From Parietichytrium sp. I65-24A (lineage: Eukaryota > Sar > Bigyra > Thraustochytrida > Thraustochytriidae): a stretch of 64,000 nt of DNA. The stretch's first letter is position 1; every line of letters starts with the position of its first letter. Below the pieces are notes generated by a model. The model was not told the DNA's origin, made no database searches, and worked only from the letters and a program-made list of their open reading frames with translations. Both the position numbers and the translations under genes were made by a program. The stretch is from NCBI GenBank assembly GCA_012862575.1, contig BLSF01000078.1, positions 62,001 to 126,000 on the forward strand. The letters are read 5' to 3'. This document shows positions 814 through 51,800 of the stretch, piece after piece.

Positions 814-2262
814 AGCATTGACTCAACAAAGTACTTGGGCTTTTACAAGGAGCAGCCGAAGATAGTTTCGGGTCGGTGGTGAAAGGATGCTGTGACAGAA
901 GTGCCCAAAGTCCAAAGAGGTTTTTTCCATTCTTCATCAACGCATGGGGGCAATGGATGGTACTCACGTCAGTACTGTGTCCGCACACTACGCCACCACG
1001 GTGCTCGGCCGTCGTGTGATTTGCGCCGCCTGTTTGAACATAAATGAACACTGCAAACACACTCTTGACTCTGCGTTCGTACCAACGACAAAGGAGGAGG
1101 ATGGCGAGGAAAAGGTTGGAAAAAAAATAGAGTGAATGATCCTTTCGTGTCCCAGTCGGCACTTCTGATCCTTCCTTTCCTCTCTGGATCCCTCTGTTCA
1201 GATTTTTCCCCCCTCGAAATATGGGAACTGACAGTGGAAGTGCTGGGACAGAGTATGCAGTGCGTGTCCTTCACTGACAGTACGGTCTCTCATGGGACAA
1301 AACGAGAGTGGCATGAGTTTAGAGTAGAGTCCTAACAACGGGGTACAAAGGGGTCATTATAAGGCTCGCTAAGGAGCTAATGAAGGGTACAAAAGGGTTA
1401 TTGTTGGCTTTGTGGTCCGCCAATTGTGGAATTTGTACTGTCATCATAAGCATGGGTGGAAGTAAAATCCTGGCGAGGAAGGCAATTCCGATTAGTCCGA
1501 TTCATTTGTATAACTTCTCAGTAGCGCAGACGTCTGCTGTCCTTGTGAGGGGAGGAGGAAGGCTTAGGTGTTTCGAGACTGAGCAGTTGGAGGTTGTTTG
1601 TTCTTCTCACTGCCCGCTTCTTTCTTGTTTGGGCTTTGGACTTTTGGTCAGAGCGTTGGCGGGTCTGTAACTTTCTTCCCTTTTTAGCGTGATCAGTGGG
1701 GGCAGTACTCGGACCGTACCTAGTACGCACTCCGCGGCGAGAGTCATTTTGACGGGCCATCTTTTTAAACTCAAAAATGACATGACCATGAGTTCGGTAG
1801 TCACTGGTTTACAAGTGCAGAGTGTAACCAAAGAAAAGCGTTTCAACTTTTTATTTTTTTCCAGTGATCACCCCACCTTTCGATAGGATTTGTTTACGCT
1901 GCACTTCAAGGCTCCACTGATCAGGAGTCTTTTGCCAGATGAGTTTGGACTAGCGATTCGCAGTCGATTGTTCAAAACATTGTGGGCCTGCTTACACGAG
2001 CGTGGCAGTGCCGGTACAAACACACCGACCATCATCGATATCAATGACTCACCTGTAGAACTGTGCATTCAATGCATGTGTACTCTCTCCTGGCACCCCG
2101 AACCCACTACAGCAGGACAGCAGGGGTTACAGCTACCCACTGTCATTCGCCTCCGCTGCTCTTCTGGGTTCCGGGTTCGCGTTTAAATCAACCCTTTGTG
2201 CACTGAGTATCTTGAGAGTGGTTCAAACTTCATGAGACCGGAAGGCTTGGCAAGCTTCTCCT

Positions 2263-2645
2263 CGACTTGCTTCGTGTCTATGCAAAACAACTCCAAGGCT
2301 CGCAAATCTATAGAATGGCAATCGCTGCATACATACATGCATGCATACAAAAGCGAATCGACAAATATTAATCCAAGCAAATTTTAATCCATGCACTCTC
2401 CAAGATTTGAGAAAAACAGCCACCAACACCTCAGGCGCAGGAATGATGTTTGTCTTTATCGACTTGCTTGATGTCTTCTCAAAATACTTTCCAGGCTCGT
2501 GACTTTTAAAATGTGGCAATTGCTGCATACTTGCAGAACATACATAACATACATACAGAACAGAACCGAATCAACCGAAAAGAAAACAAATTTTTTTGTT
2601 GAATCTCGCTCGATCTGTGAAAAACAGTCTCCATCGAAGACAGGG
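2263..2645. repeat. diverged ~197-bp tandem duplication
   Basis: The segment starting CGACTTGCTTCGTGTCT at 2263 is repeated, diverged, from 2460 (CGACTTGCTTGATGTCT). Shared landmarks in the same order are CCAAGGCTCG/CCAGGCTCG, AATGGCAATCGCTGCATAC/ATGTGGCAATTGCTGCATAC, a CATACATACA stretch and GAAAAACAG. It lies just beyond the 3' end of the ATP6AP2-like gene. No coding capacity is evident. Confidence 0.65.
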
Positions 2646-2709
2646 GAAGCAAAAGAACATTTCAAACTCGCAAAAAGAAAAATAATTCATCTCAACTGAA
2701 TCTTCAGGT

Positions 2710-3659
2710 CTACTCTTTCTTCAAATCATCACGGGCCAGCCCAGAGTACAGGATAGGGTCCAGCTCGGTTGACCATGGCACGCAAAGGAAGATGATGAGG
2801 ATGACAAAAATAAAGCCGACACCAACCCAAACATGGAGAAGAAATGCTTCCGTGTCGATGGAGTCCTGAAAATCGCTCGAAGTCGTTGTCGTAGCAAGAA
2901 TTCTCCTCGAAGTTGCTTCGGTTGCATCGGCTCCCAAAAGCACGACCTGTACAGCCAAGCGGCCGTTGTATGGCTTGGAAACGGCCTCCACGGTTTCGGA
3001 AACAAACTTGTCCAAAGCAGCCATCTTGGCGTTGCTCAAGCCAAGGCGCAGACTACTAACCCCCAAGAGGATGACATCAGGCGAGTTGTCCTGCGCAAGC
3101 GCAAGAGGGATCTGCTCCACAGCACCACTCAGGACCTCAAACTCCTTCTTGAAGTCACTTGTGACTTCCCCTACCTTGACTGTGGGCCTTGCGGCTGAAA
3201 TCATCTTGTCGTCCCCGCTTGCGGCAAGGAAGAGCGAGTCTGGGAACTGCGCAGAAAGCACAGCGGAGAGATCTGCGTTGCCTCCCTGCGAGAGCGCCAG
3301 ACCGAGCTTCGGGTCGACAGACTCTTCGGAGAGCAAGATGTCGGTATCCAGGTCGATCACATCCGCAGCAGAAAACATCTTGGTCAAGTAAGGCGATGCC
3401 TTGCTTGCGATCACTGCGTCCTTCCCAACGCCACCGATCGCGAGGATTAGGCAAGCCTTCGGCCGGTGAAAGAGATCTCCCGTTGGGAGCTCCACTGTAT
3501 CCTCCTCGCTCGTCGCCACCACCTGCATTAATTTTCACCACGTCAGTCCAAGCCATTCAGCAACAACAACCACAAACACAACAGCACATCGACCACCTAA
3601 TCACCTCCAGCCAAGTGTAGACCAGCCAAACCCGAGTTCCACAAACCCTGCGCATCCCC

Positions 3660-3694
<35 letters not shown>

Positions 3695-3910
3695 ACAACA
3701 ACAACAACTCACATCCAATCCAAGCAGCCTCGCAGTCACTGCTCCTACGTCCTGAAGCTTTCCCGCGCCACCTGTTCCGTGGCGAACTCCGTATCCTTCC
3801 ACTGCCAGTGCGCCGCCGCCACTCTTCCCATTCACTCCCTGCACCAGCACCGCCAGTGCGGCTCCTGCCACTGCTGCCAGCCTCATCTTTCCCCTCTGCT
3901 CTCCGCGCAC
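2710..3910 (-). CDS. ATP6AP2: V-ATPase accessory protein ATP6AP2 (prorenin receptor) homologue, two exons
   Basis: Probable homologue of ATP6AP2, a type I membrane protein that packs against the V0 c-ring and supports V-ATPase assembly. Exon 1 runs from 3910 (or the ATG at 3886) to 3713 and encodes a signal peptide (LAAVAGAALAVLVQG). Exon 2 runs from 3522 to 2710. Phase-0 joining gives about 328-336 residues, near the usual family length. Just after the junction, GDLFHRPKA matches the conserved GNLFHRP block of animal ATP6AP2, and the preceding LQDVGAVTARLLGL resembles the matching animal segment. One C-terminal membrane span (VWVGVGFIFVILIIFLC) is followed by LDPILY, like the DPGYDSIIY tail of the family. 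The in-frame ATG at 3528 lies in the last six bases of the intron, so a naive exon-2 start would lose the signal peptide. Identity is from motif matching by eye. Confidence 0.82.
3523..3712 (-). other. spliceosomal intron of ATP6AP2-like gene (190 nt)
   Basis: On the minus strand the donor is GTGAGT (3712-3707) and the acceptor is AATGCAG ending at 3523. Splicing is phase 0. Signal-peptide coding continuity and homology across the junction support it. Confidence 0.8.
3662..3708. repeat. (ATC)n(AAC)n microsatellite beside a splice donor
   Basis: About ten ATC units run into five AAC units. On the gene's strand this reads GTT repeats then GAT repeats, directly following the GTGAGT donor. Confidence 0.85.
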
Positions 3911-4674
3911 GCTACCTCCGTCCGCGCGGACCCTGGATTCCTCACGTCAAGGATGACGATCTCGCGGTCAGTCACAAGTGTGCCGTTGTTCGTCGGTCAA
4001 GGCAAGCTGTGCGCGATGTGTGTGCGTTCGTTCGTTCGTGCGATTCGTTCGTTTGTTCGTCGGTCGGTGAAATGCGGCAAATTGGAAACTGCCGCGGAGT
4101 GTCCTCGCGTCGTTGTTGGTTGTTGGTTGTTTGTTCTCTTCTGTGCGAAGCGACTTAGTTACTATGTTACTTTTGGATCAACCGCACCGGTGACGAGCTT
4201 GTTCGTTTTTCAAGTCCGAGAATGGTGCCCTCGAGGAACGCTCTGCCGTGAGCCTCTCATGGCGTCATATTGCATACGGTTAGACATAGATGACGTCAGC
4301 CAGGTGGCGGGGAACCGGGTAGAGAAATGTAGAGAACCGGGCATTTCTTCGGTTCCACATGCTACAGCGTCAGTCGAGGGTAGTTAGACCGGACTCTGAC
4401 GCGGTCACCTGCGACTGAAAACGTCTCCTCAGATTCCTCCCACAGAGACGAATCCAAACAGTTTTTGTCTACGATTTCTTTGTTTTTGCGAAGCACAAGA
4501 GGTGCACATCGCGCACAACTGAGTCACTCGCGAATCTCGTTCCGCGGACAGGCGCAAGGAGCGCACAGTACGCGCAAGAACGGCTTTCAACCGAACGGCG
4601 AGGATTGCACTGGCAGCGAGCACAGTACAGGGGAGAGGGGATCTCACGAAAAAAAAGAAAAGAGGAGAGCGACG
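3911..4674. promoter_or_regulatory. shared divergent promoter region of the two V-ATPase accessory genes
   Basis: About 765 bp separate the start codons of the minus-strand ATP6AP2-like gene and the plus-strand ATP6AP1-like gene. The interval holds a GTTC-type run at 4028-4062 and no supportable gene. A shared bidirectional promoter is inferred from geometry only; no core promoter motif was recognised. Confidence 0.45.
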
Positions 4675-5637
4675 ATGACGATGATGAAGACGAAGACGAG
4701 ATTCCTAGCGTTGTGCCTGGCACCGCTGCTGGCCCTCGCGCATAGCAGCGGCGCAGTTGACGTCATCTCGCGCGAAGTGCCCATTCCAGCAGTGATTTGG
4801 TCCCCGGGAACGGATTTGTTGGGAGGAAAGAATGTGTACTCTGGTCTGAAAGGTGGAATCTCGCAGTCAAAGGTGGCTGAAATGGTGGGTAGTCTGGCGA
4901 AGATGGACACGGGTGACGCATTGGCAACGGAGAACGGTTCCGTTTCGGCCGATGTGGTGGTGGTGTTCATGGCGGAGAGCCTGTCGTCGGGAGAAGTGTC
5001 TAAATTGGCGGATGCTTACGGCACGTCGGAGAATGGGTTGGTGAAAAGGTTTGCGGATGCTCAATCTTCGATGGTGCTGCCGTACACGTTTTTGGACTCG
5101 GAAGGCGGCGTGCAGACGCCATGGAGCAAGTGGTTTTTCGCACAGGCCAACCAGGTGCGCGTGTTGTTGGGCGAGGAAGGGATCGAGGCTGGTGTGAAGG
5201 ACATTCAGGACAAGGTTGCGGCCAAGCAAGGCACAGTGGTTGTCATGTCTATTCTGGAAGGCGAGCCGGAATCATGGGAGCCTCTTATGATCTCATTCTG
5301 CGACAAACTCAGCGATGTGACGACAAACTACGTTGCTGTGCTGACCGGCCTGAACGCCGTGGCTACTCCATCTTTTGAGGTGGTCCCTCACGTCTCATCC
5401 CTTTTCAACCTCGCGTCGGCATCCAAGCAATTCAGGAAGCTAGAGGACACTAACGAGACAACCACCTCCTCGACTACTGTCACCAAAGTCCAAGCGTCGC
5501 CGGCTATTGTGTTTGGAATGGTTTTCGGGTTGGTTTTCTTCCTCGTCACTTTTGTGTACCTCTCCTGTATGGACTCTTTACAGGCGCCTACACGATTTGT
5601 GAAACGAAACCCGCCGATGGGAAAGGTGTTCGACTAA
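4675..5637 (+). CDS. ATP6AP1: V-ATPase accessory protein ATP6AP1 (Ac45) homologue
   Basis: Probable homologue of Ac45/ATP6AP1, the glycosylated accessory subunit whose luminal domain caps the V0 sector and whose C-terminal helix enters the c-ring. The first in-frame ATG gives 320 residues; a second choice is the MM at 4681. The N-terminus is a signal peptide (FLALCLAPLLALAHSSG). The luminal part has VPIPAVIWSPGTDLL, matching the family's VPVVLWSS..DLW start, then DVVVVFMAESLSSGEVSKL and SSMVLPYTFLD, both paralleling Ac45. A membrane span at about 275-297 is followed by a short tail (MDSLQAPTRFVKRNPP) resembling the LKTMDRF...GP tail of Ac45. The frame is open for 70 codons upstream but without an ATG. 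It lies head-to-head with the ATP6AP2-like gene. Confidence 0.8.
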   Translation: MTMMKTKTRFLALCLAPLLALAHSSGAVDVISREVPIPAVIWSPGTDLLGGKNVYSGLKGGISQSKVAEMVGSLAKMDTGDALATENGSVSADVVVVFMAESLSSGEVSKLADAYGTSENGLVKRFADAQSSMVLPYTFLDSEGGVQTPWSKWFFAQANQVRVLLGEEGIEAGVKDIQDKVAAKQGTVVVMSILEGEPESWEPLMISFCDKLSDVTTNYVAVLTGLNAVATPSFEVVPHVSSLFNLASASKQFRKLEDTNETTTSSTTVTKVQASPAIVFGMVFGLVFFLVTFVYLSCMDSLQAPTRFVKRNPPMGKVFD

Positions 5638-5770
5638 ATCGTTCCCCAAAATTAGAGTTGCCTTCTCACCATTTTTTTTTAATTTTAGTTTTTTTCTAAT
5701 TTTATAAAATTAAAATGAAAAACGAACCAAAATTAGACATACATTATTACCCAAAGCGTAAAGAGGCTCA

Positions 5771-5776
5771 AATAAA
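5771..5776 (+). terminator. candidate AATAAA polyadenylation signal
   Basis: A canonical AATAAA lies 134 bp after the ATP6AP1-like stop codon in AT-rich DNA and before the convergent protease gene ends. Its use is inferred. Confidence 0.4.
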
Positions 5777-5910
5777 TATTTACTGTCATCTACAAGGAAG
5801 CTGGGGCGAGGAACACGAACACCTTTTCATTTCTTTGGCGACAACGACGACAATGACGATGACGAAGAAATGAAAATCGTAAGCGTTGTTGCTTTCGTTC
5901 CCCATTACAG

Positions 5911-7224
5911 CTAAACTTCTTCGACCAGCTTTGCTGCCGAGGGCCCGGTCTGACGATTGCCGATTGCCACTGTAGCGGCGACGACTGCCGCATTGATTCC
6001 ACATTTCCCGCGGCCGCGCACAATCCTAAAGAAACCTTGTTCACCCCATTTGGGGCCCCAGCTGGCTTTGGCTTTCCAAAACGCGGTACCTTTCTCCGCT
6101 CCGAAGCCGACAAGAAGAACCGAGTGATTTAGCGTCTTCGAGGAGCAAAAGAAAGGGTTTGCAACTCCTCGACGGTACAACTGCAGCATGGTAGCGTCCA
6201 TGGTTGCAGACATGGGACCATTTCTCGCCAGCTGGTTGGCAATCTCTGTTTCGTCACGGGGTAAAGCCTTCCACGAATCTACATAACCGAGCTGGTTTGA
6301 GCTGATCCATGAATCATCTTTGCAGATACTTTTCCGCCCTTGGCCAATCGTCGAAGTGGCGTTGCAATAAAAGTCGTCATGCTCACCACAAGAGGATTCA
6401 TCGTAACCGCTCACCATGCATGGAAAGCACAGCGGCATTTCCGACTTGCCAAGCTCACCCGCACAGTAAGGCCAACTTGAGTCTTGCACGAACCCTTTTT
6501 TCCAAAACTCTAGCACGAGGTACGGCCAGCCCCCAAACACCCCGCAGACCGCATTATTGGTAGCGCGGTCTGCTTCCGAATTGCATTCTAAGCTGTGCTC
6601 GACACTGACCGATATATTCTTCTTACCGTGACGAAGAGCTAGCTGCCCTTCCACGACACCAGCCGCGGAGTAGATGTAGCACGTGCCAATGGTCCCTTGA
6701 TCTTTCACAGCAGAGACCACGCCCGGCACCGTGGACCAATCAATTGGCTCAGTGTTGCGCTGTCTCTGTAAAACGCCACGACTCCCCTCGGGCACAAACT
6801 GATGATTTTTGCTCGTTTCAACAGCTGGCACCACGTGCATTCCAGCCCTCGAAAGCATTTGCGCAAACTCCTCGCTCGTCCAGTCCCCAAACGGCGAGTG
6901 CTCGGCTGAGTATTCCGCTCCATCCAGCTCATTTTCATTCATCTTCCGTGCCGCCTCGAGGTTCTCCAGAAACACTTTCCACCTGAAGCAATCACCTTGC
7001 TTCTCAAATCTCCTCAAAAACCTGTCATATCCCTCCACCGCTTTTGCATCGCCCAGGCCAGACCCACACTTGAGCACCATCTCCCCGAGGCCTGCATCGA
7101 CCTTCTCATGCCCGTTCCAAGAACTCTCCGCTGTCCCATCCGCCGCCACTTCCACGAACCGTCCTGCTGCGAGGACGACTAACAACCCCGCAGCTGTCAC
7201 TGCGTACCCGCGTACACACTTCAT
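5911..7224 (-). CDS. secreted papain-family (C1A) cysteine protease, divergent active site
   Basis: Cathepsin-like zymogen of 437 residues. A signal peptide (TAAGLLVVLAAG) is followed by an I29-like inhibitor prodomain (~62-130: YDRFLRRFEKQGDCFRWKVF) and a mature domain from about 158 (PIDWSTVPGVVSAVKDQG). Gln176, catalytic Cys182 (GTCYIYS) and His367 (LNHSVLLVGFG) are present. The family's catalytic Asn (KNSWG) is Ala387 here (KASWGPKWGEQGFF). The cysteine before GSC is Ile179 and its usual disulfide partner in GCNGG is Val229 (GVFGGWP), so that pair is lost together. A cysteine-rich insertion lies at about 254-301. Expected location is the secretory or vacuolar pathway. It may be weakly active or inactive; class assignment is secure. 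Confidence 0.88.
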   Translation of the reverse strand: MKCVRGYAVTAAGLLVVLAAGRFVEVAADGTAESSWNGHEKVDAGLGEMVLKCGSGLGDAKAVEGYDRFLRRFEKQGDCFRWKVFLENLEAARKMNENELDGAEYSAEHSPFGDWTSEEFAQMLSRAGMHVVPAVETSKNHQFVPEGSRGVLQRQRNTEPIDWSTVPGVVSAVKDQGTIGTCYIYSAAGVVEGQLALRHGKKNISVSVEHSLECNSEADRATNNAVCGVFGGWPYLVLEFWKKGFVQDSSWPYCAGELGKSEMPLCFPCMVSGYDESSCGEHDDFYCNATSTIGQGRKSICKDDSWISSNQLGYVDSWKALPRDETEIANQLARNGPMSATMDATMLQLYRRGVANPFFCSSKTLNHSVLLVGFGAEKGTAFWKAKASWGPKWGEQGFFRIVRGRGKCGINAAVVAATVAIGNRQTGPSAAKLVEEV

Positions 7225-8013: not shown

Positions 8014-8676
8014 ATGGAAGGGCGGGTGAGCGACGAGCAGCTGCAGGAGCTGTACACATGGGTTGATAAGATACCTTTGTCGCGGCCGAAGCGGAACATA
8101 GCGCGAGACTTTAGTGATGGCGTGCTGTTTGCGGAAATTGTGCACCATTACCACCCGAAGCTCGTGGAGTTGCACAACTACAGCCCGGCGAATGGACTCA
8201 AGCAGAAGATATATAACTGGGAGACGCTTCACGCCAAGGCGCTGGCAAGAATTAAGTTTGTGCTCACACCGGAAGAGATCCAGGCCGTAGTGAATTGTAA
8301 ACCGATGCAAATCGAGAAACTGTTGCTGAGACTCAAGTCCAAGTTAGCCATGTATGCTTCGCGCAGATCCTCAAGCGGCGCGAGTACTGGACGGCCCCGC
8401 TCGGTCGTGTCGAGTCTAGACGATAGGGAGGAAGACTCGGCCAGTCAGTACGATCTAGCTGAAAGTGGAGGCCCCCAGCATAGCTTTCACCGATCCCTGG
8501 ACCAATCTGGCGGTATGCAGCAAAACAATGTCAGGGCGCTCTTGGAGGAGAAGGATCAGACTATTTTGGAGCTTCGGGATACAATAAGCATCTTGGAGCT
8601 GAAAGTGAAGAAGCTTGAGCAGCTTGTGCAGCTTAAGGACAACAAAATATCTGCTCTGCAGCAGCAGCTTTTCTGA
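8014..8676 (+). CDS. SPEF1: SPEF1/CLAMP calponin-homology protein
   Basis: A 220-residue homologue of sperm flagellar protein 1 (CLAMP), which binds and bundles microtubules in cilia, notably at the central apparatus. An N-terminal calponin-homology domain (~6-110) carries SPEF1-type signatures: LYTWVDKIPLSRPKRNIARD, FSDGVLFAEIVHHYHPKLV, then NWETL. The middle (~120-175) is Ser/Arg/Asp-rich linker. The C-terminus (~178-220) is a heptad-like coiled coil (LLEEKDQTILELRDTISILE). Length fits the short SPEF1 class. The start is the first ATG and matches the family N-terminus. It implies the organism makes a motile cilium at some life stage. Confidence 0.88.
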   Translation: MEGRVSDEQLQELYTWVDKIPLSRPKRNIARDFSDGVLFAEIVHHYHPKLVELHNYSPANGLKQKIYNWETLHAKALARIKFVLTPEEIQAVVNCKPMQIEKLLLRLKSKLAMYASRRSSSGASTGRPRSVVSSLDDREEDSASQYDLAESGGPQHSFHRSLDQSGGMQQNNVRALLEEKDQTILELRDTISILELKVKKLEQLVQLKDNKISALQQQLF

Positions 8677-9985
8677 CCAAGTAATAGTCTTTTGTGTGAT
8701 AAAAGTTGTATGATTTCAGCTGAGCAATTCTTTTCCCTTTACATCATAATCTGCAGTAGCACGCTTTTCGAATCCCAATCTCTGCTGCAAAGGCCAATGA
8801 TCGGCAGACGCTCGTCAAAGCTTGAAAGTATTTGCGCTATCACAACGATTATGGCAAAGATCATTCAAGCTCAAATCGCCAAGCATCGGAGCGGACTGCT
8901 CTTGCAACGCGACCGGTGATCAATTTTAGCGTACTTGGTGATGGCCAAATTACAGCCAAACTATTGCCTCACATTTTGTCCTTTCCGTGGTGAGCCGAAG
9001 AGCTATCGAGAGGTTTCTCTCAACCGCTTCCGAGCGAAATCGGTCAAGAGCTTGTCGACTGGCTTTCCGAGGATCGATCCTGCGATTTTTGCGGAGGATG
9101 AGTTAAGACGCTCGACTGGGTTGATGTTGCGCTTCCAACAGACTGCATTCCTGAAACCAGTGAGTGCAGCTGAGTGCTGATGAGTGGGAGATCCCCGGAC
9201 CGAGACAAGGCGTCCAGAGCGTCCTCCCTGTTAGACTGTTGGCAATCTGGTGCGACAATTGTTGTCGGCCTTAGAGCAGCGTGTGGATCAAGCTTCTCGA
9301 TCTGAGCGTCCAGGCTCGCAGGGATACGAGTCAAATCAACGCCCTCGTCATCTCTACCCTTCTCTCCAACACTCATATGGTCTACTAAGTGAGATTTCGC
9401 TTTTGAAGTATTTGTCTTTGGTTTAGGAACAGCTTGATCAGGAGAAGGACCCAACGGCATCACGCTTTTTGGTAGCAGCAGACTTGCAAAATACGATTCC
9501 TGGGCTCCAAGCTCCGCCCCTTCGAAAGGCGCTTAAACCACCAAGAGAGGAGCAGCATTCATTCGAGCCATGGCATCGGCGTAGGAGGGTGCGGTTGAGC
9601 GTTCCAAACAAGCACGAACTCGAATCCAAAAACCCCAAAAGCATTGTTGACAGCACCTTGCTTGGACTCTTCAAAACCTTCCCCCCCCTAATCTTTAAGT
9701 CGTGAGCAACCACATCGCAAGGCTCCTGGTACTCGATGGATAGCATCACGAAAAGCGTTTTACGTCGGTTTGATCTCTTTCGTCTACTGGCATACTGTCG
9801 AGCCAACGGATAACTTCTCCCCAAAATTCTACGATCCTCAATAGAAGGTGTGCGTTGGGGGATCGCAGTGATACTAACAGCAAATGCATAAACTAAAAAG
9901 GCCAGTGATTCGTTTCGAGGCGTGCAAGTAGGAAAGGCTCTGAGGGAGGTTCAAGATGTACAGATCTAAGTAGAAAGTTTGTTGG
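8677..9985. other. gene-free stretch
   Basis: No supportable gene. Overlapping minus-strand frames at 9044-9463 and 9438-9824 have no recognisable domain. This could hold a decayed gene, but nothing I see shows that. Confidence 0.5.
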
Positions 9986-39044: not shown

Positions 39045-39809
39045 TGTCACCAATGTTTTCAAGCGTATTATGAAAGATAAAATGGTTTGTACAGCACATT
39101 TCCCGTTTTTCATCTTCCGCATGCAGAGCTCTTTTTTAGTTTTTTTTCAAAGTGTGAAGTTTCGAGATTTTTACACACAACGCTGCTCTCAGCCCATCAT
39201 CTTGGGTCCGTAAGAGACGAGATACTCGTGGTGTCTCGATAGTTTTCGAGATGTCTTCAGAGACGACGTGTGCCGATTGACTCATTTTCTATCCTCAACT
39301 TTTATATGAAAGGCACACCTCTAGCGCACGACGAATTCAGCAAAAGTTCTGTTATTCTCCAGCGCACGACGGATCACTCAAGTGCTACTCGAGCGCCACA
39401 TAAAGACTACTTGGAAGAGAAAAGTTAGCCTCAAAGCACGAAAGAAGAGTGTTATCGAAGTACATTTAAGCGAAGCCACGAAGTGCAGCGTAAAGACGGA
39501 TCGCTATACATTTTTGAACCGCTAGCAATCAGTTGGCTGAGATGTTCATAAATTGTTTTCCTTCAAGAAATTTGATTCATATGAACAACATGCTTGACTA
39601 AAAAAGATTAAAAAGAGACAGTCGCAATCGGCTGCCTGGAGAAAGAAAAGTCTCGAGGTCGGGCACGAAAACAAATAAAACACACAGCAGTTGTTCCTCG
39701 AGCGTAATCTTGTCGCGCTTGCTCTGTGGGAAACAGGCTTCTAGAGCCTGTGCCCGAAGTGTGCAAGTTTTAATCAAATCTAACACGCAGACGAAGGCCA
39801 TTCGAGATC
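39045..39809. other. intergenic region between convergent genes
   Basis: No gene. Contains a ~30-bp segment (39464-39497) nearly repeated at 56714-56746, and several AGCGCACGACG motifs (about 39320-39370). Confidence 0.6.
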
Positions 39810-40850
39810 TCAGCTTCTATACGAGATTCTTTGAGAGGCACGTGGAGTCGTGTTTGCAGTACGCTGAGAATAGCGCGGATTCGAGTTGGACGTAGCGGCT
39901 GTGTAACCTGTTCTCACGCTGGATCGCATACTTGAACGCACGGAGGCGCGATCAACAGGGATGGCAACCGAAATGCGGTTTGGATTAACAGACAGCTCAT
40001 CCTCTTCATCGTCGTCAAGAGCATAGGCGCTCGGAATGAGTTGAGGACGGAAGAGGACCAGAGCGATGCAAAATCCAACTACGAGAATTTCGACAATTCC
40101 AACTCCCAGAGCTCCGTACCCAAAAAAGTTGATGTTTTCTCGAAGCCACTCTGTGACGGCGTCTTCGAATTGGCTAGGGATGCCTTCCCCGCATGTCACA
40201 GCATTGCCAGCCACAGCTTTCCCAACCAATGCAAAGCCGTTTACTTTGAATTGCTCCATGGCGGTGCACACTCCTTGCTCAATGTCGTCACTGGGAGAGT
40301 CCGAGTCGTCGAGAATGCAGGTGCTCATCTCAGTTCCGTTTGACGTCGAGCAAATAGGCACCGGAAGGCAGTACAGAGGATCGGTGTCCAAGTAGTAGGT
40401 GCCGCAGTAGTTTTCATTTTTGACGCAGCACGTCTGATATGACCGATAAATGAAGTTGTTGATGGCAATCTCAGTCTGATCCTGCAACTCGCTGGATTCA
40501 GCTCCATCTGAGGATTCGATATAGTCGAGATACTGCAGGAAGATGATGGACGCGGCCACCTCGAAGGCGATGAAGACAACCACGAACAAGAGGTAGCACA
40601 CGAGCACAGGCTTCTTGCCTGTGACGGCTCCGTAAATCCCTACCATCGTAAGCACAAACAGCGCAAAGCCAGCAGCCATCACCCCGATGATCGGGCCGGT
40701 GGAAAGCATCTCCGAGAACTGATACTCATATTCGATCCACAAATACGCTCCTCCCGCACACAAGGTGAGCCCCACCACCGCTGACACCAGATTGATCGCG
40801 ATCAAAAAGTTGCGCCCCAGAAACGTGCAGCAATTATCTTCGAGCCTCAT
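39810..40850 (-). CDS. tetraspanin-like membrane protein
   Basis: A 346-residue four-span protein with tetraspanin layout. TM1 begins near residue 13 (NFLIAINLVSAVVGLTLCAG), TM2 and TM3 form a close pair (~50-110), then a large extracellular loop, TM4 (~238-262, YGALGVGIVEILVVGFCIA) and a long Ser/Arg-rich cytosolic tail. The large loop carries a CC motif (YQTCCVKNENYCG) and further cysteines, as in the CCG signature, though Gly is replaced by Val. The tail contains repeated Arg-Ser and Asn-Thr elements (VRSSMRSSVRTGY). Tetraspanins organise membrane microdomains. The start is the first ATG. A short repeat tract lies immediately upstream. Confidence 0.82.
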   Translation of the reverse strand: MRLEDNCCTFLGRNFLIAINLVSAVVGLTLCAGGAYLWIEYEYQFSEMLSTGPIIGVMAAGFALFVLTMVGIYGAVTGKKPVLVCYLLFVVVFIAFEVAASIIFLQYLDYIESSDGAESSELQDQTEIAINNFIYRSYQTCCVKNENYCGTYYLDTDPLYCLPVPICSTSNGTEMSTCILDDSDSPSDDIEQGVCTAMEQFKVNGFALVGKAVAGNAVTCGEGIPSQFEDAVTEWLRENINFFGYGALGVGIVEILVVGFCIALVLFRPQLIPSAYALDDDEEDELSVNPNRISVAIPVDRASVRSSMRSSVRTGYTAATSNSNPRYSQRTANTTPRASQRISYRS

Positions 40851-42741: not shown

Positions 42742-45700
42742 TCAACTCTGTTGCGGATGTTTGCATTGCGGGAGTGACAGGTGTTTCTCGGAGTGAAAGA
42801 TGCCAAAGCATTCCTTGCACAGAACCTGCTTACATATGTGGCAGTACTTCGTGGAGCGTCTTGGCTCGCGAGTGTGAGGGCGGCGCTCTCCTGAACCAGG
42901 ACTGGAAAACCTTTCGCAAGTTTTGCAGCAAAGGATGCAACGCAACTGGCCTTGTTTGCCATTCGTCATATCCGACGGTATTTTCACCCGGAGGTGAGTT
43001 CCCTTTGATGTGTCGAAGCGGAGCGTGTCAAGGTATGGGCCAAATGTTTCTGCGACTTTTCTCCGCTTTGCGCTCGGTGGAGTTGGCAACAAGGGCGGAG
43101 TTTCGATTTGTTCGACGTCTTCGGCGGCTCCCCAGGACGCCGAATGATTTTGGTCCACTTTTTGAGAGACTCCTGGAATGGCACGAGCTAACTTTTCCGG
43201 GGTAAGTGTGACCATTAACTCGTGTAAGAAATCGTCGTAGGTGAGGGAATTTCGCCTGGCAGCAACAAATTGGCTGTACGTACCAAAGCTATCAAGTTCG
43301 CCACGAAGAAGAGCGAGTTGTGTGAGTCGAAATGCATTGAACAGGATGTAGTCCAGGAAGGTCATCCACATTAACGATCCTGGATTGAGGTCTTTGTAGA
43401 TAGCCTGGCAGCTACTCACTACTTTCCTGACAAGATCGCAGCCGCCCATGAACTTGTTCCACATGCTAGTCATAACTGGAAGGAGTCTGACACACGTTGG
43501 CGGCGTGCCGTTTCTCACAACATCCGAGGAGTGCGCATGCCAGAGATGGAGGTGCTGCTCAGCCGTGTGATGTTCGACAGCAAAACCATATGCAGGGGAG
43601 CCGTCCGGTCCAAGCCTTGGGAATGCGCCAGGTCCCACATCATTGTACGCAAATGAGAGCCATCGATCGCACAGCAATTGTAGGAAACGGATCCAGTCCC
43701 TTCGCTGCTCTCTTGAGACATGGACCAAAATACCCTGAACAAGCTGAGACGTTGTTGCATAGATCAGGAGCGTCGAATCCAAGTTGAGCACAGCAGCGCG
43801 GTGAACAACTTGAACGCGATAGCTTGGGTTCGGCACCCACTCCTTGAACTGCTCGGACCCAGCCTCGCACTGTCTCCAGCTCCCTTCATCTGCTGCCTTT
43901 TGATTGAGGGCAAGAATTGTTTCTGCCGTTGTAGAGGTTTTGATATCCAACGCAATCAAACCAGCAAACTGTTGCTCCGAGCTCAAGACCGCCACCCCAT
44001 CTGGTGAGTCAGCAGCGTAAGGCACATCACGACGAGCGGCCAGCCCATACTCTTTAATGGAAGCGACGTTGTAGAACCCCTGCGTCTCCTCTCGTACGAA
44101 CTTGCTCAAGCCCTTTACTATAGCTTGCTCATTCGCGGACCCCTTATGAAGAGGATTTTTTGATTCGTTTGCGTTTCTTCCGAAAGGAGACATGAACCAA
44201 CGCTGAAACATAACCTGTAAAAAAGCCTTCTGACGGTCAGTGTTGGTGTAGCTATCTTGCAGATCCTCATCGTCGCTGTACAAGGCCCCCTCTGCAGGAG
44301 CAGACGATGCTGCGGCTTGTTCGTAAAAAGCAGCGATCGCGGCGCCTAAGACAGGCTTGGTGGCCCCAGGCGAAACATCGATGGCATTGTTTGCGACAAT
44401 TTGCAGGAGCTCGCTCTTCGATTTTCGAGACCAGTAAACCGCTGTCTTCTGCGCGAGGTGGTTTTGGTGTAAGCCCGTGGCTGTAGTCGCCGCGTCCGGC
44501 TCCAGCGGCGGAAGTGTCTGGGTGTCGAAACCGATGCTTTTCTGAGGAGAAAGTTTCGCAATCAGCTTCACGGACGCATGCATTCCCTGGAGCTCAGCTG
44601 TATCTATGAATACGCTTGAAATGCAGTTCATCGACGCAAACGTGTTTGTACTCGAACTGCGAAAGAGTCGCGCTAGGAACCAGCATTGGCTGCGCTGTGT
44701 CGCCGAGAGCTTGTACAACTTGCTCTCCATGTACTCCAAAGCATTTTCACTTCGCTTCTTGAACCCAGCAGAAGTTAAGACAATGGGAGGCTCGCGCACG
44801 TGTGGCATTCGCGCAACATTCCCAGGGCTTCCAGCTTGCTTCCCAGAGGTTGTCTCGTACACCCAGCGATTTTTGGTCAGGTTCATGTTCGTGGTGATCA
44901 GACGAGCGACCCTGGCTTTCCCTTGGCCGTGCCTCATCATTTGCGCAGCGATTCTCTCATGTCGTTTCACTGCAAGAAAATTCGAACGCTGACCTTTCAA
45001 TGGTACAACAACCCGCTTGCCCTTCACTCGGTCCTCCACCTTCTCGTCGCGGCCAATGAATGGAAACGAAGTGGTTTCCTTTGCTGTTCCGAGAATCGAA
45101 ACTCCAAGCGACTGCAGGATCTGGACAACATTCGCTTGCCGTAAAGGGTCTTGCTGCTTTGCCAGTTGCAGGTAGCCGCGATCAATGAACAGCATCAGGG
45201 CAGACGTTGCAGACGGCTGCAGCGAATCTCTTGATTGCACGCCATACAGCGTTACAACCGCATTCTCAATCATTTGCCCGACTTTCATGCGCAGGTCCTC
45301 TAGCCAGCCCTGCAAAATAAGGCCGCTTCCAACACTAACCATGAGATGTACCACTGGCTTTTTCTTCTTGGTTCTAGTTGGAATTCGCCGTATACCGTAG
45401 CTTTCAAATTTTCTCGAACCTTTTGCAATTTTGTCATCATCAAGGTCACACCAGGTTGTACCGCTGACAAAAAACTTTTGCACCCAATGTCGACGACACT
45501 CCGCCATCATGTTGAACAGAACCGGGTCTAGACTGTGTGGTGGATTTGAGACTCCGTCACGATTTTTTTGTTGACTACTAAAAGGTACGTCAGCGAACTT
45601 GAGTTGGTGCCGAACCTCATTATGGGCCATCAAGTCAAGAGGTTCAATAAAATTATATGAATATCTGTGCTTTGCAAATGCCGCAGCGGACTTTGATAAA

Positions 45701-46215
45701 TATCGCAGCCCAATTTCCACTTTGAGGTACCTCACAATCGTGCCGAAATCCAGCAGTGCCGCGTCCTTCTTGGAATCCACCAATCCGCGACGCAGCCAAG
45801 CTGCGAAGGACACCAAATACCCTTCAGGCATACACGCCGCGAAAGCTCCGAATATTGTGTCCTTCAGCTCCCCCCACCTGTCCGCGCGAACTCTGTCACA
45901 AATTTCTCGGGCTTCCGCCTTTACTTTGCCCAAAAGAATTTCATCGCAATAATTATAGCTCAGAATAGTAGGTGTCATCTTGTAACCACTCAAGGTCCCA
46001 TGGAACTCGCCGCCTTCGTGGCTCAATTCGCAAAATGCCCAGTCCGTCGGGTCTCCGAGGAGATTGTTGTCTGATTGGCAGCGTTCCAAGTCCTCCCCAG
46101 TCTCCACTCGGTCCTCATCGTCTGTCGAGTCACTTTCGCTGTCGTCTGAAACATCGGCCACGTCGCTCTCCTCGCCGCGCTCCTCATCTTGACGCAGTTC
46201 TCCGTCCTCGTTCAT
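42742..46215 (-). CDS. piggyBac-like transposase with embedded YqaJ-type nuclease domain
   Basis: A 1157-residue single frame. Acidic N-terminus (1-45), then a piggyBac-like DDE core: first Asp near 257-259 (TTWCDLDDDKIAKG), second Asp345 (LMLFIDRGYL, followed by LGVSILGTAKETTSFPF), third Asp927 in the hallmark MGGCDLV with the downstream helix (MWMTFLDYILFNAFRL). Between the second and third Asp is a ~550-residue insert: a SAP-like helix pair (~597-631, KSELLQIVANNAIDVSPGAT), then a PD-(D/E)xK nuclease of YqaJ type (~665-850) with Glu696 (KGSANEQAIVKGL), Asp739 (AADSPDGVAV), Asp757-x-Lys759 (LIALDIKT) and Gln802 (YRVQVVHRA). The C-terminus is a Cys/His cluster (C1093, C1096, C1125, C1128, C1133, C1136, H1141, H1145), as in piggyBac transposases. 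The frame is intact and all expected catalytic residues are present. Assignment rests on motifs seen by eye. Confidence 0.82.
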   Translation of the reverse strand: MNEDGELRQDEERGEESDVADVSDDSESDSTDDEDRVETGEDLERCQSDNNLLGDPTDWAFCELSHEGGEFHGTLSGYKMTPTILSYNYCDEILLGKVKAEAREICDRVRADRWGELKDTIFGAFAACMPEGYLVSFAAWLRRGLVDSKKDAALLDFGTIVRYLKVEIGLRYLSKSAAAFAKHRYSYNFIEPLDLMAHNEVRHQLKFADVPFSSQQKNRDGVSNPPHSLDPVLFNMMAECRRHWVQKFFVSGTTWCDLDDDKIAKGSRKFESYGIRRIPTRTKKKKPVVHLMVSVGSGLILQGWLEDLRMKVGQMIENAVVTLYGVQSRDSLQPSATSALMLFIDRGYLQLAKQQDPLRQANVVQILQSLGVSILGTAKETTSFPFIGRDEKVEDRVKGKRVVVPLKGQRSNFLAVKRHERIAAQMMRHGQGKARVARLITTNMNLTKNRWVYETTSGKQAGSPGNVARMPHVREPPIVLTSAGFKKRSENALEYMESKLYKLSATQRSQCWFLARLFRSSSTNTFASMNCISSVFIDTAELQGMHASVKLIAKLSPQKSIGFDTQTLPPLEPDAATTATGLHQNHLAQKTAVYWSRKSKSELLQIVANNAIDVSPGATKPVLGAAIAAFYEQAAASSAPAEGALYSDDEDLQDSYTNTDRQKAFLQVMFQRWFMSPFGRNANESKNPLHKGSANEQAIVKGLSKFVREETQGFYNVASIKEYGLAARRDVPYAADSPDGVAVLSSEQQFAGLIALDIKTSTTAETILALNQKAADEGSWRQCEAGSEQFKEWVPNPSYRVQVVHRAAVLNLDSTLLIYATTSQLVQGILVHVSREQRRDWIRFLQLLCDRWLSFAYNDVGPGAFPRLGPDGSPAYGFAVEHHTAEQHLHLWHAHSSDVVRNGTPPTCVRLLPVMTSMWNKFMGGCDLVRKVVSSCQAIYKDLNPGSLMWMTFLDYILFNAFRLTQLALLRGELDSFGTYSQFVAARRNSLTYDDFLHELMVTLTPEKLARAIPGVSQKVDQNHSASWGAAEDVEQIETPPLLPTPPSAKRRKVAETFGPYLDTLRFDTSKGTHLRVKIPSDMTNGKQGQLRCILCCKTCERFSSPGSGERRPHTREPRRSTKYCHICKQVLCKECFGIFHSEKHLSLPQCKHPQQS

Positions 46216-46769
46216 GCTGCAAGCCTAGTCTGTGTCTTCGCTGCGCGCACACAACGGGGAGGGCATTCAAAGACTTCAAAAATTTGTGCATTTTGACAAT
46301 TTTGAGCCGAGCTTCCTCACGGTGCAACTCAATTGAGAAACTTCCGAAACGGGCTCCATCATGATGATGATCACTATAAAAAATCAACGCATGAACCTCA
46401 TGGCGAACTTATTGGCATATAAATCTACCAAAGTAATTTATCCGCCAGAATAAAAAGCCGTCATTTCATTATCGGTAGAAAATATCTACCGATAACTGAA
46501 TTTTGAATTTTTTGATTTTTTGATTTTTTTCCACTCTTGAGTCTCTTGAGTTTTGAGACTGGTCGTGAGTGACACAGAGAAGCGCGGGACTAGACGCGCG
46601 ATACGCGGACGGGTAGAAGCCAGGCAGCGGGAGGAGGAAGGAGAATTCGCCGCGCGCGCACCCCCACTACCCCTCGTCCCTCCGTCCCAGCGTGCCCACA
46701 CTTGTGGTTGCCAAAGGCCGCGGGATCCCGTCCCATCCATCCACCCATCCACCCAGTGAAGCATCAGAG
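46216..46769. other. intergenic region with a sharp composition change
   Basis: AT-rich to about 46540, then abruptly GC-rich to the ARS2-like start codon. Contains the palindrome at 46471-46493 and a CCATCCAC run at 46733-46757. No gene. Confidence 0.6.
46471..46493. repeat. perfect 9-bp inverted repeat
   Basis: ATCGGTAGA and TCTACCGAT around AAATA, about 255 bp upstream of the transposase start codon. Confidence 0.85.
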
Positions 46770-48619
46770 ATGCGGCGGCGCTCTCGCAGTCCGCGTCGGC
46801 GTTCGGGAAGCAGCCAGCAGGGTCCCCGGCGAGGACCCCCCTCAGACCCTCGCGACGTTCTCCTAGCGTTTCCCGCGTGGGCGCGCGGCGAGGACGCCCG
46901 GGGTCTGCCGGTGTCGGCAGCCGGGTACGATGCGTACGTGTCCGCGTGGCGCGATGCTCAAGCGCGAGAGTTCCTGAACCGCCGCTCGCGGGAGGAGTGG
47001 TTCCAGGAACGTTTCTGCCCCCTCCGCAGGGACGTCGCCGCGCGGACACTTTCCAACAGGGCCGTACGCCGCGCGCTCGACTGGGCGGACCCTGCCTTCC
47101 CGCTCACCACCCCCTCGCCCGCCAAACAGACCAGTCCCACCAGTCCCAACAGTCCCACCAGTCCCAGGTCCCCGCAAGCGTCCGCGCACCCCCGCGCACC
47201 GGGCTTCGTGGCCCACCTGGACCAGCCGGCGGGGGGATGGGCCACGTGGGCCACGTGGGACGCGCGCTGCTGGACGCGGCGGCGTTCGTTCCGCGCATCC
47301 CCGAGTCCGTGGAACGTTCCGCGCTCGGTCGCGCGGTGGGACAGGTCTGCGAGGACGGGACGGCGGACGCGAGCGTGGACGCGGAGACGGGGACGGCGGC
47401 GGTGCAGGTTCTCGTGGGCGAGCCGCAGGCGCTGGTGGCGTCCAGCGCGAGCCTGAACAGCGTGGGCCGCGTGCTGGCGCCGGGGATCGTCCGCGCGGGC
47501 AAGCCCAAGTTCGAGCGGGACGCGTGGGTGTGCTGCGCGGACCCCGCGCTCCAAGGCGCGGTGCGCGCTGCGCTGGACAACCAGCGCGCGCTGGAGGCGG
47601 ACGGCCACCGCATCGCGCTGGTGCCGGTCCGCGCCGGGCCGGCCAACCCTGTGCTCGGCCAGGAGTTCGCGCACCCCGTGAGGGTCCTCGCGGACGCTGT
47701 GCTCGCGCCGCGCGTGGCCGCAGCGTGGGACGAGCTGCGCGGCGTGCAAGGCGGCGTGGAGGAGGTGCTGCGCGGCGAGCACGTGCGCGCGTTCGTGGAA
47801 GAGGGAGATTCTGGTTACCCGGCGAATGTGACTGCGATGGTGGAGGAAACAGGCGACGTAGCGCTGCGCGAGTTCGTGCGGGAGGTGGGCGCAGCTAAGA
47901 GGAAGCTGGACGTGGTGCTGGCGTACCTGCGAGACGTGCATCTGGTGAGCTACTACGCGAGGACCAGCTTCAGCTGCACCGCGAGTATGATGTACATGCT
48001 ACGGTTCCCGTGCCTTCGGCCGCTCCCCACGCTGGACGCGCTCAAGAAGGGACACGAAGAGTGGCGCAAACTCAAGGAAGACGCGCCGGGGAAGAGCGTC
48101 GAGGAGCTCATCGACGCGTGGCGACAAACTGAGAGCAATCCGCCTGCCACTAGGGCTGTGGACGACGGCGCTCAGACATTGTTAGAGTCTGCTCGAGCGG
48201 TGAAGCAAAAAATTGTAGATGACCTGGCCAAGCTGGAGCAAGCCAAAGAGGAAGCTGTTGTCGCCTACTGTGAGTCGCAGACGAAGCGGGAGGCTCCGGG
48301 CCGCTTCAGATGCCTCCTTCCTCCTCACAAGCTCTTCAAGACCCAGGAACACGTGCACAAATACATCCGAGCCAACCACGGGGACGATAAGTTACTGGCC
48401 GTGTATCAGAAGGCTGAAGAAGCATTTGCCGAGCAAGTCTTTCTGGATGATCCAGAGAAGCCGCTCCCTCCTCTCCCGCGATATGCTGAACCGCACTCGC
48501 GCGAGGACTACATTCGCCAGCACTTTCCACATCACCTTCCTCCTGGAGAGAGGCCCACCACTCCAAAGCTAGCGGACCTTCATCGATTCCGGACTGTAAT
48601 TGACTTCACTTTGATTTAG
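46770..48619 (+). CDS. SRRT: SERRATE/ARS2 homologue with an internal frame change
   Basis: Homologue of ARS2/SERRATE, which links the nuclear cap-binding complex to RNA processing and decay. It starts at the ATG giving an RS-rich N-terminus (MRRRSRSPRRRSGS). The first frame carries the ARS2 N-terminal pattern (VLLAFPAWARGED ... EWFQERF). At the G6 tract 47231-47236 coding sense moves by one base: downstream, the other frame carries YLRDVHLVSYYARTSF, matching ARS2's YLR.VHs.DYY, and a zinc-finger-like CLLPPHKLFKTQEHVHKYI, matching the ARS2 C-terminal finger. No plausible intron joins the frames. A missing G, assembly error or a real mutation, explains it best. The 5' ~1.1 kb is strikingly GC-rich at third codon positions, the rest less so. 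Confidence 0.78.
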
Positions 48620-48871: not shown

Positions 48872-51800
48872 TCATGGAATTTCCGCGTTCTTGCGCGGCA
48901 TGTTGTCCAGAGTTTCGAATATGTACTGAAGACCAGGGCGAGTCGATGCTCCAACAATCCTCTGCCAGACATAGCCCGACCTGTGCAAAAACTCTTCGTG
49001 GCCGAACAAAATCAAATGATTTCGCGCTCGCGAGAGTAAAACGTTTAGCCGCCTGGGGCAACTCATAAATGTTCGTTTGTTGCGCTGGTCGTCGCTATAC
49101 TCCGTTCGGCAACAGCTCACGATGACGATGTTGCTTTCTCCGCCCTGGAACGCATCGGTTGTTGCCACGCGGACAGGGCAGTCCTGTACCGCAATTCCGG
49201 AGTTTGCAACGAGCCGGGTCTGGATGGCGACCACCTGCGCTCGGTACAAGCACACAATTGAGATGTCGACAGTGTCAACGCCCGCGCGAACAAGCTTTTC
49301 GACGAGTGAACAAATCAGAGCTGACTCTACTTCGTTGCAATACGACTCCCCTTTTCGAAGCTCGCGGCCATGGCCGACATCAAAATACACGATTGGGCTC
49401 AATTCGGGTACAAACGGCTCGCGTTCTGCGTCGGAAATGCCATTTATAACCCTACCGTTGTAGAAGAGCTCAGAACACATGGACGAAATGGTTGGGTGGC
49501 AGCGGTATTGTGTGTGGAGCAAGATCGGCGTGTAGATTCCCCATCTACAAAGCCTTTCAAATAAGCTTGTGCCAAACCAGACCTCCGTTGCATTCTGCAC
49601 AAGACCACTGTTTGTGGGCGCATCGCTCACAGTGACTGGGGGAAGTTGCAGCGGATCGCCGACCAAAACTAAGAACTCGCAGTTTGTATTGAATATTGGT
49701 AGCAGCGAGAGCGCCTCCACTGCCTGGCAGGCCTCGTCCAAAAACAAAATCGTTCGCTTGCCTTCAAACAGCTTAGAAGCAAAGTCTTTTGCAGCGCTGC
49801 TGCAGCACGTCAATCCAACGATGCGAGCCTGTTCGAGCTGGGCTTTTCTCCCGCGCGCTTTGTAATTATCTCCTCTTGAGCCACCTCCCGTCGACAATGA
49901 ACCAGCGCTATGCAACACGTAGCTCTGCAATTCGCGATCGATTTTCCTGTCGCTTCCGACTCTTGCGAGATCCGTAATACCGTTTTTCAAAAGCGTTTTG
50001 AGCATGTTGTCTACGGCGGTATTGGTAGCAGCGCTCAGACAGATTCGCACATCATTGTTGGCGTCACCCAGCAGCTGGCAGCAGAGCGCAATACACGCGC
50101 AGATCAACTTTGTTTTCCCGCACCCGTAGGGGCCGTGCACGATGCTGACCTTCTCCGAGCTCTGGCTCAGGAACCAATCCGACGTCTTGCGAAGGGCTCT
50201 AGCCTGGGCATCGTTCAATGCAAAACGTCGCACTACCTCTACATAAGCCCTTTCGACGGTTTCTGGCTCACTCAAGTCTCCGCATCGCTCGACGGGGAGC
50301 GCAGGCCTGCTCAAATCCGGCTCTTTACACGCGCGGGCCAAAAGATACGGGAAGATCGGTGGTCTGGCGATCTGCCCGTCACGCAACTGACAAGCGAGCT
50401 GAAGCATCATAAATTCGTTCTCGATGCTCTGGCCTCGTTGAGCGCATACCTTGGTTTGCGATGACCAAGTTCCTGACACGAAACTTGGACTAAAATTGGT
50501 TGACAATGGTTCCACTGAGCGTTTGTGCGCAGCTTTTCAGTTAGCGAAGCTTTTGACAAGAAGACAGACAGACAGACAGACCTACAAACTCAAACCATTT
50601 CTAGCTTGGTAACTCCACTTACCTTGCAAATTACCATCCGGCGTTGCGGACTGCCAAACTGATCGAAAGATCCAAACTTGCTCTGACAAAGAGTCGCTTG
50701 TTTTAGCTGTTTTGTTTTTTCCCTGCCAAAATGGCTGTCTGGAGACAAACCACAAATCCCCTAGCGAGCATGTTTTCCGCAAGTAGTCCTGCTTGCTCAG
50801 CGCGGTAGATGACATGAAGTAGCGAGTCGTCGCAGTTTCTGAGCTCTTGCGCGGTGAAGAGCATTCGTCTGAGTCACTATGGTTCGAGTCATCTCCGTCA
50901 CTTTCCGACCCTCTTCTTCGTTTACGGTACTTTTGCTTTTTATGGGCTTGGAAAGGTTTCCTCGACTTTGACTTTCCGGGGATCTTTTTATACATTGTAC
51001 AAGCGGCGTCTGCCATCGAAGGTGCGCCAAGCCTCATCGTCAGGTTTGCGTACGATATGGATTCCAACTCACCTTGCACCGACCTGACGAGGAAGGCTGC
51101 ATACTTCTCTTCAGCTTCCTTCGGCGAATAGTTTTCCAGCGAGGTTAGTCTTGCAGTGTTGACCCCCTTCTTATCGCGCGCTGGAAACTGTATCAGATAA
51201 TCCGTCGACTTTACGCTCGAAGGCTCTCGAAAAGAGGTGAGAGCTGAACCATTTCGCGGAGGCTGTGAGGGCAAAGGCTTGCTTTCATCTGATTGATTGA
51301 ATGCTTGAGCTGGCGGTCGAAAGGGCTTCCGCAGCCCAGTGGCTCGCCTCTCACTGTCCTTAAGCCCATCGCAATTCTCCTTTCCCACACAAAGCTGATT
51401 CGCCCTTGATTGAGGAGCACTGACTTTCAAAGGGACTAGTACAGGTTTACTCTTGATAGACGGTATGGAAATCTCGCTTTCGAGATTCGCTCCTTCCAGG
51501 GCAAACATCTCTAGAAGATCACAGCCGGCCTGGTCAGCTATTTTGACGATGGAACCAACTGTTGTAGATTCTCGCTCTTTGCCATCATGAGTCTGAGAAG
51601 GGGGTGTTTGAACTTTGGGGGCGGGATCAAACATATCTAGTAAGTCGTCTGTGGACAGTGGTTCGCTTGATCGTGTACTTTGCGACATGCCGGGCTTTGT
51701 GTCTAAGCTTCCATCCAATCTCTGCCTTTTCCCAGTCTTTTGGACGATAACTGCAGAGACTTCTCTTCGGCTTACTGGAGGAGGAAGAGCGCACGCGCTC

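Follow-up and report, generated by a model that had tools for sequence, protein, structure and literature searches.

A fused reading frame in Parietichytrium

A reading frame encoding a fused protein, P0001, was identified in a 64,000-nucleotide stretch of the genome of Parietichytrium sp. I65-24A (contig C78, positions 62001-126000; this whole stretch is referred to as the window). P0001 is a relative of the piggyBac superfamily of DDE transposases that contains a second nuclease, of the YqaJ/lambda-exonuclease type, nested within the transposase fold. The frame runs on the minus strand from an ATG at 46215 to a stop codon at 42742 and encodes 1157 residues with no internal stops, in agreement with a preliminary description made from the letters alone, which had reported one intact frame of 1157 codons without its strand. 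Under a model of independent bases of the same composition, a stop-free run this long has a probability of about 1e-24. The frame is considered to lie beyond chance because the genome (42.5 Mb in 172 contigs searched) has long frames of this family at 13 further sites, and three outside proteins belong to it as well. The landmark residues listed in the preliminary description were all found in their places: D259 (CDLDDD), D345 (FIDRGY) and D927 (MGGCD) in the transposase, and E696, D739 (SPDG), D757-x-K759 and Q802 in the nuclease. The C-terminal cluster contains Cys residues at positions 1093, 1096, 1125 and 1128. By sequence comparison, the fused frame, the homology of each of the two modules, the site of nesting and the architecture shared by the family are established here. 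The features of the frame are given in Table 1, in which pB denotes T. ni piggyBac, i-E the independent E-value and pLDDT the predicted local distance difference test score.

Table 1. Features of the P0001 frame, in window coordinates
Feature	Residues	Position	Strand	Basis
Whole fused-protein frame P0001, 1157 codons + stop		42742..46215	-	Translation; family alignment
Region matching the helical part of piggyBac that precedes the catalytic domain (approximate limits)	~115-249	45469..45873	-	A1 profile 128-368 on pB 131-373 (6x67_C)
First RNase-H fold part, D259 (pB D268) and D345 (pB D346)	250-381	45073..45468	-	A1 alignment; PMC7351741
Strand-rich stretch where piggyBac has its insertion domain	382-484	44764..45072	-	Three predicted strands, very low confidence (pLDDT ~22-36)
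Nested PD-(D/E)xK nuclease of YqaJ/lambda-exonuclease type, within the DDE fold	500-860	43636..44718	-	YqaJ matches of L025 and L029; fold matches
First nuclease helix, QRSxxWFxxRxxxxSST, with predicted phosphate pocket W512, R516	503-530	44626..44709	-	W and R kept in 17/18; PMC7496540; low model confidence
SAP/Rho_N-like helix pair, insert within the nuclease of one clade	595-640	44296..44433	-	Weak: low-confidence helices; Rho_N E = 0.08 (L033)
Nuclease core: E696, D739, D757-x-K759, Q802	690-858	43642..44148	-	Family alignment; fold matches
Last piggyBac-fold part, WNKFMGGCD with D927 (pB D447) and subsequent helices	908-1005	43201..43494	-	A1 868-932 on pB 432-496, i-E 2.6e-5; hhalign E = 2.1e-6
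C-terminal Cys/His zinc-binding domain of piggyBac type	1093-1141	42793..42939	-	piggyBat 9c0f 513-574, i-E 0.0016; four Cys kept in 17/18

The transposase core and the nested nuclease

As a single sequence, P0001 matched no Pfam family and no PDB entry. A profile built from 12 family members (A1) matched the solved piggyBac transposases, namely T. ni piggyBac (6x67, E = 1.3e-11) and piggyBat (9c0f, E = 7.2e-10), and the piggyBac ancestry proposed in the preliminary description is thereby supported. On 6x67 the profile covers pB 131-373, which includes the D268 and D346 segments, and pB 432-496, which includes D447, and P0001 retains all three catalytic aspartates (DDD) in this piggyBac-homologous RNase-H core. 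On 9c0f the profile takes in the Cys-rich zinc domain as well, whereas its match to the Cys-rich domain of T. ni piggyBac itself is not significant. Compared with a DDE_Tnp_1_7 protein, the profile gave E = 3.2e-4, and its C-terminal part gave E = 2.1e-6 (probability 89) with hhalign. The Pfam cut-off of DDE_Tnp_1_7 was reached by none of P0001 and ten scanned relatives, and this family was matched genome-wide at C1:162637 only. The genome also has a plain piggyBac frame, 802 codons long, which by eye is free of such an insert.

The Pfam cut-off of YqaJ (PF09588) was passed by two relatives, L025 and L029, and by neither P0001 nor the other eight relatives scanned. The match of L029 starts at its residue 745 with profile position 1, which is the same place as residue ~503 of P0001. 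Lambda exonuclease was among the tied top fold matches for the nuclease region of the predicted structure, the confidence of which is low, including that of the first helix. P0001 carries the complete active-site set E-D-(D/E)xK and the W/R phosphate pocket, as defined by the lambda exonuclease residues in PMC7496540 and PMC3118119. These findings sustain the earlier proposal that a module of the YqaJ/lambda-exonuclease type separates the second catalytic Asp from the third. The limits of the module, which had been drawn from residues 640-665 onward, had to be moved: the domain begins near residue 503 with the motif QRSxxWFxxR, and the stretch containing Q507, W512, R516 and T523, conserved in the family alignment, had been overlooked. 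By analogy with W24 and R28 of lambda exonuclease, W512 and R516 are predicted to form the 5'-phosphate pocket. The sequence LDIK, noted earlier as standing in place of the usual E-x-K of the family, is particular to P0001, since the residue aligned with Asp757 is Glu in 14 of the 18 family sequences.

A SAP-like helix pair had also been placed in front of the nuclease. The helices are predicted, at low confidence, but their assignment to SAP is weak (P0001 matched neither SAP nor Rho_N, and the only match, Rho_N in L033 with E = 0.08, is below the cut-off), and the pair lies inside the nuclease (residues ~595-640), not before it. In the alignments the pair is confined, by eye, to the clade of P0001, P0002, P0003 and L033.

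The insertion domain of T. ni piggyBac comprises residues 372-433 and follows the fifth strand, and hairpin loops, mostly those of the insertion domain, line the DNA channel on its sides (PMC7351741). The A1 profile exits pB at 373 and re-enters at 432, and P0001 has 528 residues across the matching stretch. Because this gap coincides with the insertion domain, the nuclease is considered to have been built in at the insertion site of the RNase-H fold.

The same two activities are combined in KolobokE, in which a DDE transposase is paired with its own lambda-Exo-like nuclease, and Kolobok elements target TTAA as well (PMC9587614). It is nevertheless scarcely credible that P0001 is a KolobokE transposase mistaken for a piggyBac relative. 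The Kolobok C/DxxH motif is absent as a family feature, being found between the second and third catalytic residues in at most two of 17 sequences at any column; the A1 profile matches piggyBac structures at 1e-11; and the nuclease lies inside the transposase domain, whereas that of KolobokE lies downstream of it (PMC9587614).

A stand-alone YqaJ frame of 319 aa (L037, G000:C42:80332-80712) gave the strongest YqaJ match in the genome, at 87 bits, and is outside the P0001 family. It is a possible donor of the nested nuclease domain.

Family members, conservation and element ends

A search of the genome with P0001 identified 15 loci, including the window gene, and a search with L029 added seven, so that the family comprises at least 22 loci. 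Fourteen of these have an open frame of more than 1000 codons from stop to stop, one (L022) is split over two frames and seven are fragments; L022, L023 and L024 are decayed copies. All 13 other long frames were aligned with P0001 and most have the same layout; L027 is devoid of the D259 and D345 segments. Three protein searches outside the genome, each scoring ~8000 candidates, found at least three family members and one plain piggyBac (P0004). The family members P0002 and P0003 show 34% and 37% identity to P0001, respectively. The third, P0005, was found with the L029 group (33% identity to L029) and is listed as a hypothetical protein of Hondaea fermentalgiana, a thraustochytrid of the Labyrinthulomycetes. 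This one named relative would place the host of the window probably among the labyrinthulomycetes; a marker family, PfaA, stayed below its cut-off in the genome. The domain order, which the preliminary description had suggested looking for in protist genomes, recurs in most of the 13 other long frames in the genome of the window itself. In viral contigs, 102 pattern matches yielded no confirmed relative. At one family locus (L030:1086-6808), two pieces are linked by one N at 2259, and the left piece (1086-2258) equals the unit 2260-6808 without 2432-5797 at 98-100% identity; this represents either an internally deleted allele or a join made in assembly.

Eighteen sequences were compared at the catalytic positions. 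The full DDD is present in 10 and the full nuclease set, with Q802, in 12; eight have both (one of them the frame-broken L022), four the nuclease set only, two the DDD only and four neither. Seventeen of the 18 keep the W/R pocket, and 17 keep the four Cys residues. The nuclease set is intact next to a broken DDD in L032, L033, L040 and L041, the alignment of the third Asp being uncertain in L033.

The ratio of nonsynonymous to synonymous substitution rates (dN/dS) was 0.17, 0.12 and 0.20 in three closer pairs of relatives, those of the 11 whole-gene pairs that allowed an estimate, at high synonymous divergence (dS 1.45-2.54) and with the window gene in none of them; synonymous sites were saturated in the other eight. 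For the separate domains, ratios of the proportions of nonsynonymous and synonymous differences (pN/pS) were obtained from eight pairs with shared members, trimmed to aligned columns, and were 0.19-0.29 for the nuclease and 0.21-0.42 for the DDE part. The nuclease value was the lower one in seven of the eight pairs, with intervals that overlap in all but one. An earlier per-domain estimate for L032/L040 (0.44 for the DDE part and 0.20 for the nuclease) had included the acidic linker and was replaced by the trimmed values of 0.26 and 0.19. Both modules are under purifying selection in the pairs of relatives tested. The main groups appear in both the DDE and the nuclease trees, one of them at a weak support of 0.635 in the DDE tree, and P0005 shifts its place. 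Because both parts are under purifying selection and the main groups are common to the two domain trees, the family is read as the probable product of a single ancient fusion with both parts held by selection.

Fragments, the frame-broken copy and the many sequences that have lost some catalytic residues would also be expected if this were an old transposon family in decay, its nuclease carried along passively and contributing nothing to transposition. The persistence of 14 open frames of more than 1000 codons, the lower pN/pS of the nuclease and the near-universal W/R pocket make this reading unlikely. A defence enzyme, whose DNA-binding parts would target invading ends for degradation of foreign DNA by the lambda-Exo-like nuclease, is very improbable: the intact DDD of 10 sequences would be unneeded for such a role, and a Pfam-only scan, which covered 17 of the 45 frames of the window, named no defence-type neighbour.

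The genes next to P0001 look ordinary, with a tetraspanin frame (39810-40850) on one side and an ARS2-like frame (46877-48619) on the other. A GC-rich block at 46001-48000 (64%, against 51-53% in the adjoining 2-kb steps) lies over the ARS2-like frame. At 46469-46495, ~250 bases upstream of the P0001 start codon, TTATCGGTAGA and TCTACCGATAA form a perfect inverted repeat around a loop of 5 bases.

The ends of the family loci were searched in several ways. A general search of the flanks of 13 loci (12 family loci and the plain piggyBac L036) for terminal repeats gave nothing convincing. In the 12 family loci, inverted repeats bounded by TTAA were sought up to 2.4 kb from the frame and scored against a cross-locus background; none stood out, and only L025, at 4.5, exceeded the highest value of its own background, 4. 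The window gene received no score in this search because TTAA is absent within 2.4 kb on its 5' side; there is no TTAA from the P0001 start codon to window position 50500, 4.2 kb upstream. Since neither a TTAA target duplication nor short terminal inverted repeats were found in these 12 loci within 2.4 kb of the frame, P0001 is filed as a piggyBac-superfamily protein and not as an element; ends that are longer or decayed could have escaped this search. An all-against-all comparison of 15 loci, from which L040-L042 and the fragments found only with L029 were left out, gave matches only within frames, to a ~50-bp motif and to local repeats, besides a few short unrelated ones. Two stretches flanking the window gene, of 685 and 1542 bases, matched only themselves in a genome search that skipped very common words. 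Multiple copies with shared ends, which the preliminary description had recommended looking for, therefore did not appear among the loci compared. The closest pair among the loci compared, L027/L028, is 73% identical over 1891 bases. The lack of shared ends and TTAA repeats, the self-only flanks and the divergence of this closest pair speak against recent spread within the genome, and the pattern fits an old low-copy element and a host gene family alike.

Two candidate pairs of ends were rejected. An inverted pair around L035 proved to be the dispersed ~50-bp motif, the 22-base core of which has 183 genome matches with up to two mismatches against none for the reversed control. This motif occurs at L035:1118-1161, L035:8638-8687 and L022:7185-7233 and, in diverged form, at window ~39464-39494; in Rfam it gave a sub-threshold COG2908 match alone (19.8 against 58.7 bits). 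A longer inverted pair around L028 consists of two convergent coding frames (1627-3240 on the plus strand, 538 codons, and 8077-9537 on the minus strand, 487 codons) that are 48% identical over 430 residues and are duplicated genes enclosing the family member. Three tandem units of ~54-71 bases, each with AACTAAAGGTTAA, lie upstream of the L029 frame (L029:7780-7930) and may be binding sites or a terminal remnant.

The flank results also suit a domesticated host gene family, in which the piggyBac core would mainly bind and position DNA, the nuclease would do the work, and intact and DDD-broken paralogues would cooperate in the manner of PiggyMac (Pgm) and the PiggyMac-like proteins (PgmL) in the DNA elimination of Paramecium. 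This is a possible but somewhat doubtful reading. It would account for the missing ends, the self-only flanks and the TTAA-free upstream stretch, for long frames under purifying selection despite deep divergence, for the four members with a complete nuclease and a broken DDD, for the lower nuclease pN/pS with its overlapping intervals, and for the listing of the Hondaea member as a hypothetical protein. The PgmL proteins without a complete DDD are still needed in Paramecium (PMC6143343), where diverged piggyBac paralogues with and without the full DDD occur in one genome, as they do here. Their extra parts are terminal extensions and not a nuclease (PMC6143343), however, and no link of the P0001 family to programmed elimination was found here. 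Domestication is further opposed by the decayed copies, such as are seen in mobile elements, and by the retention of both catalytic sets in eight of 18 sequences.

Proposed cutting and resection, and known systems

The preferred reading, to which a probability of about one half is given, is that P0001 is a piggyBac-superfamily transposase relative with a YqaJ/lambda-exonuclease nuclease at the insertion-domain position of its RNase-H fold, acting by cutting and then resecting. T. ni piggyBac nicks DNA and makes hairpins on the element ends; the donor flanks are rejoined without a scar and the hairpins are opened later (PMC7351741). In P0001, the DDD core presumably still cuts DNA and would do so at the element ends. 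The nested nuclease would take a 5'-phosphorylated end and digest that strand in the 5' to 3' direction. Its substrate would by analogy be the flanking (donor) DNA, because the piggyBac insertion domain lines the channel for hairpin and target DNA and the element ends stay hairpin-sealed until later; with the element ends sealed, a nuclease that requires a 5' phosphate and is placed at this site would encounter the donor flank first. Resection of the donor end would block seamless joining at TTAA and favour homology-based repair, by which the donor site would retain or regain a copy. A reservation is that lambda exonuclease prefers a short 3' overhang (PMC7496540), whereas piggyBac leaves a 5' overhang. 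In a rather speculative extension, P0001 would be a single-chain cut-and-resect recombinase of protists, its RNase-H insertion site taken over by a lambda-exonuclease fold, that passes DDD breaks straight to 5' resection, with homology-directed copying in place of the seamless excision of piggyBac, and the DDD-broken paralogues would be host enzymes for end binding and trimming.

P0001 resembles the piggyBac superfamily (6x67, 9c0f) in the homologous segments around D268, D346 and D447 and in a Cys/His domain like that of piggyBat, and differs from it in the ~528 residues that replace an insertion domain of ~60 residues and in that no TTAA-bounded ends were found. It resembles lambda exonuclease/YqaJ (PF09588), LHK-Exo and mimivirus R354 in the order of the active-site motifs and the W-xxx-R pocket, and these were among the top fold matches; nesting in a transposase, a clade-specific insert and Asp for Glu at 757 set it apart from them. 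ISL2EU of the PHIS superfamily is likewise a DDE transposon with a YqaJ exonuclease, but the nuclease has its own separate open reading frame (ORF), the transposase is of the PIF/Harbinger type with helix-turn-helix (HTH) and THAP domains, the target-site duplication is AT and, in PMC4482050, the element is described from animals only. P0001, a fused frame with a piggyBac-type core, does not show this arrangement, in which the YqaJ nuclease is encoded apart from a THAP/HTH DDE transposase. According to the same 2015 paper (PMC4482050), it is unknown what the additional ORFs of ISL2EU do. Among the matches listed in searches of open-licence full-text literature, none describes a piggyBac protein with a YqaJ-type insert, and there was no match for thraustochytrid together with piggyBac. 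The earlier statement that no such piggyBac protein is known therefore holds within these searches, while a nuclease partner as such is already present in other DDE elements, ISL2EU (PMC4482050) and KolobokE (PMC9587614). The piggyBac host and the nesting within the catalytic fold are new relative to these two.

Scarless excision by a single enzyme is classically exemplified by the piggyBac transposase. A second nuclease facing the flanking DNA in a piggyBac-type protein would raise directly the question of whether transposons choose the repair route of their break. Beside ISL2EU and KolobokE, P0001 is a third, structurally distinct case in which a DDE transposase and a lambda-exonuclease-like nuclease are paired; a shared function of these unexplained nucleases is therefore more likely, and P0001 provides a single-chain protein in which such a function of transposon-linked lambda-exonuclease-like nucleases may be tested.

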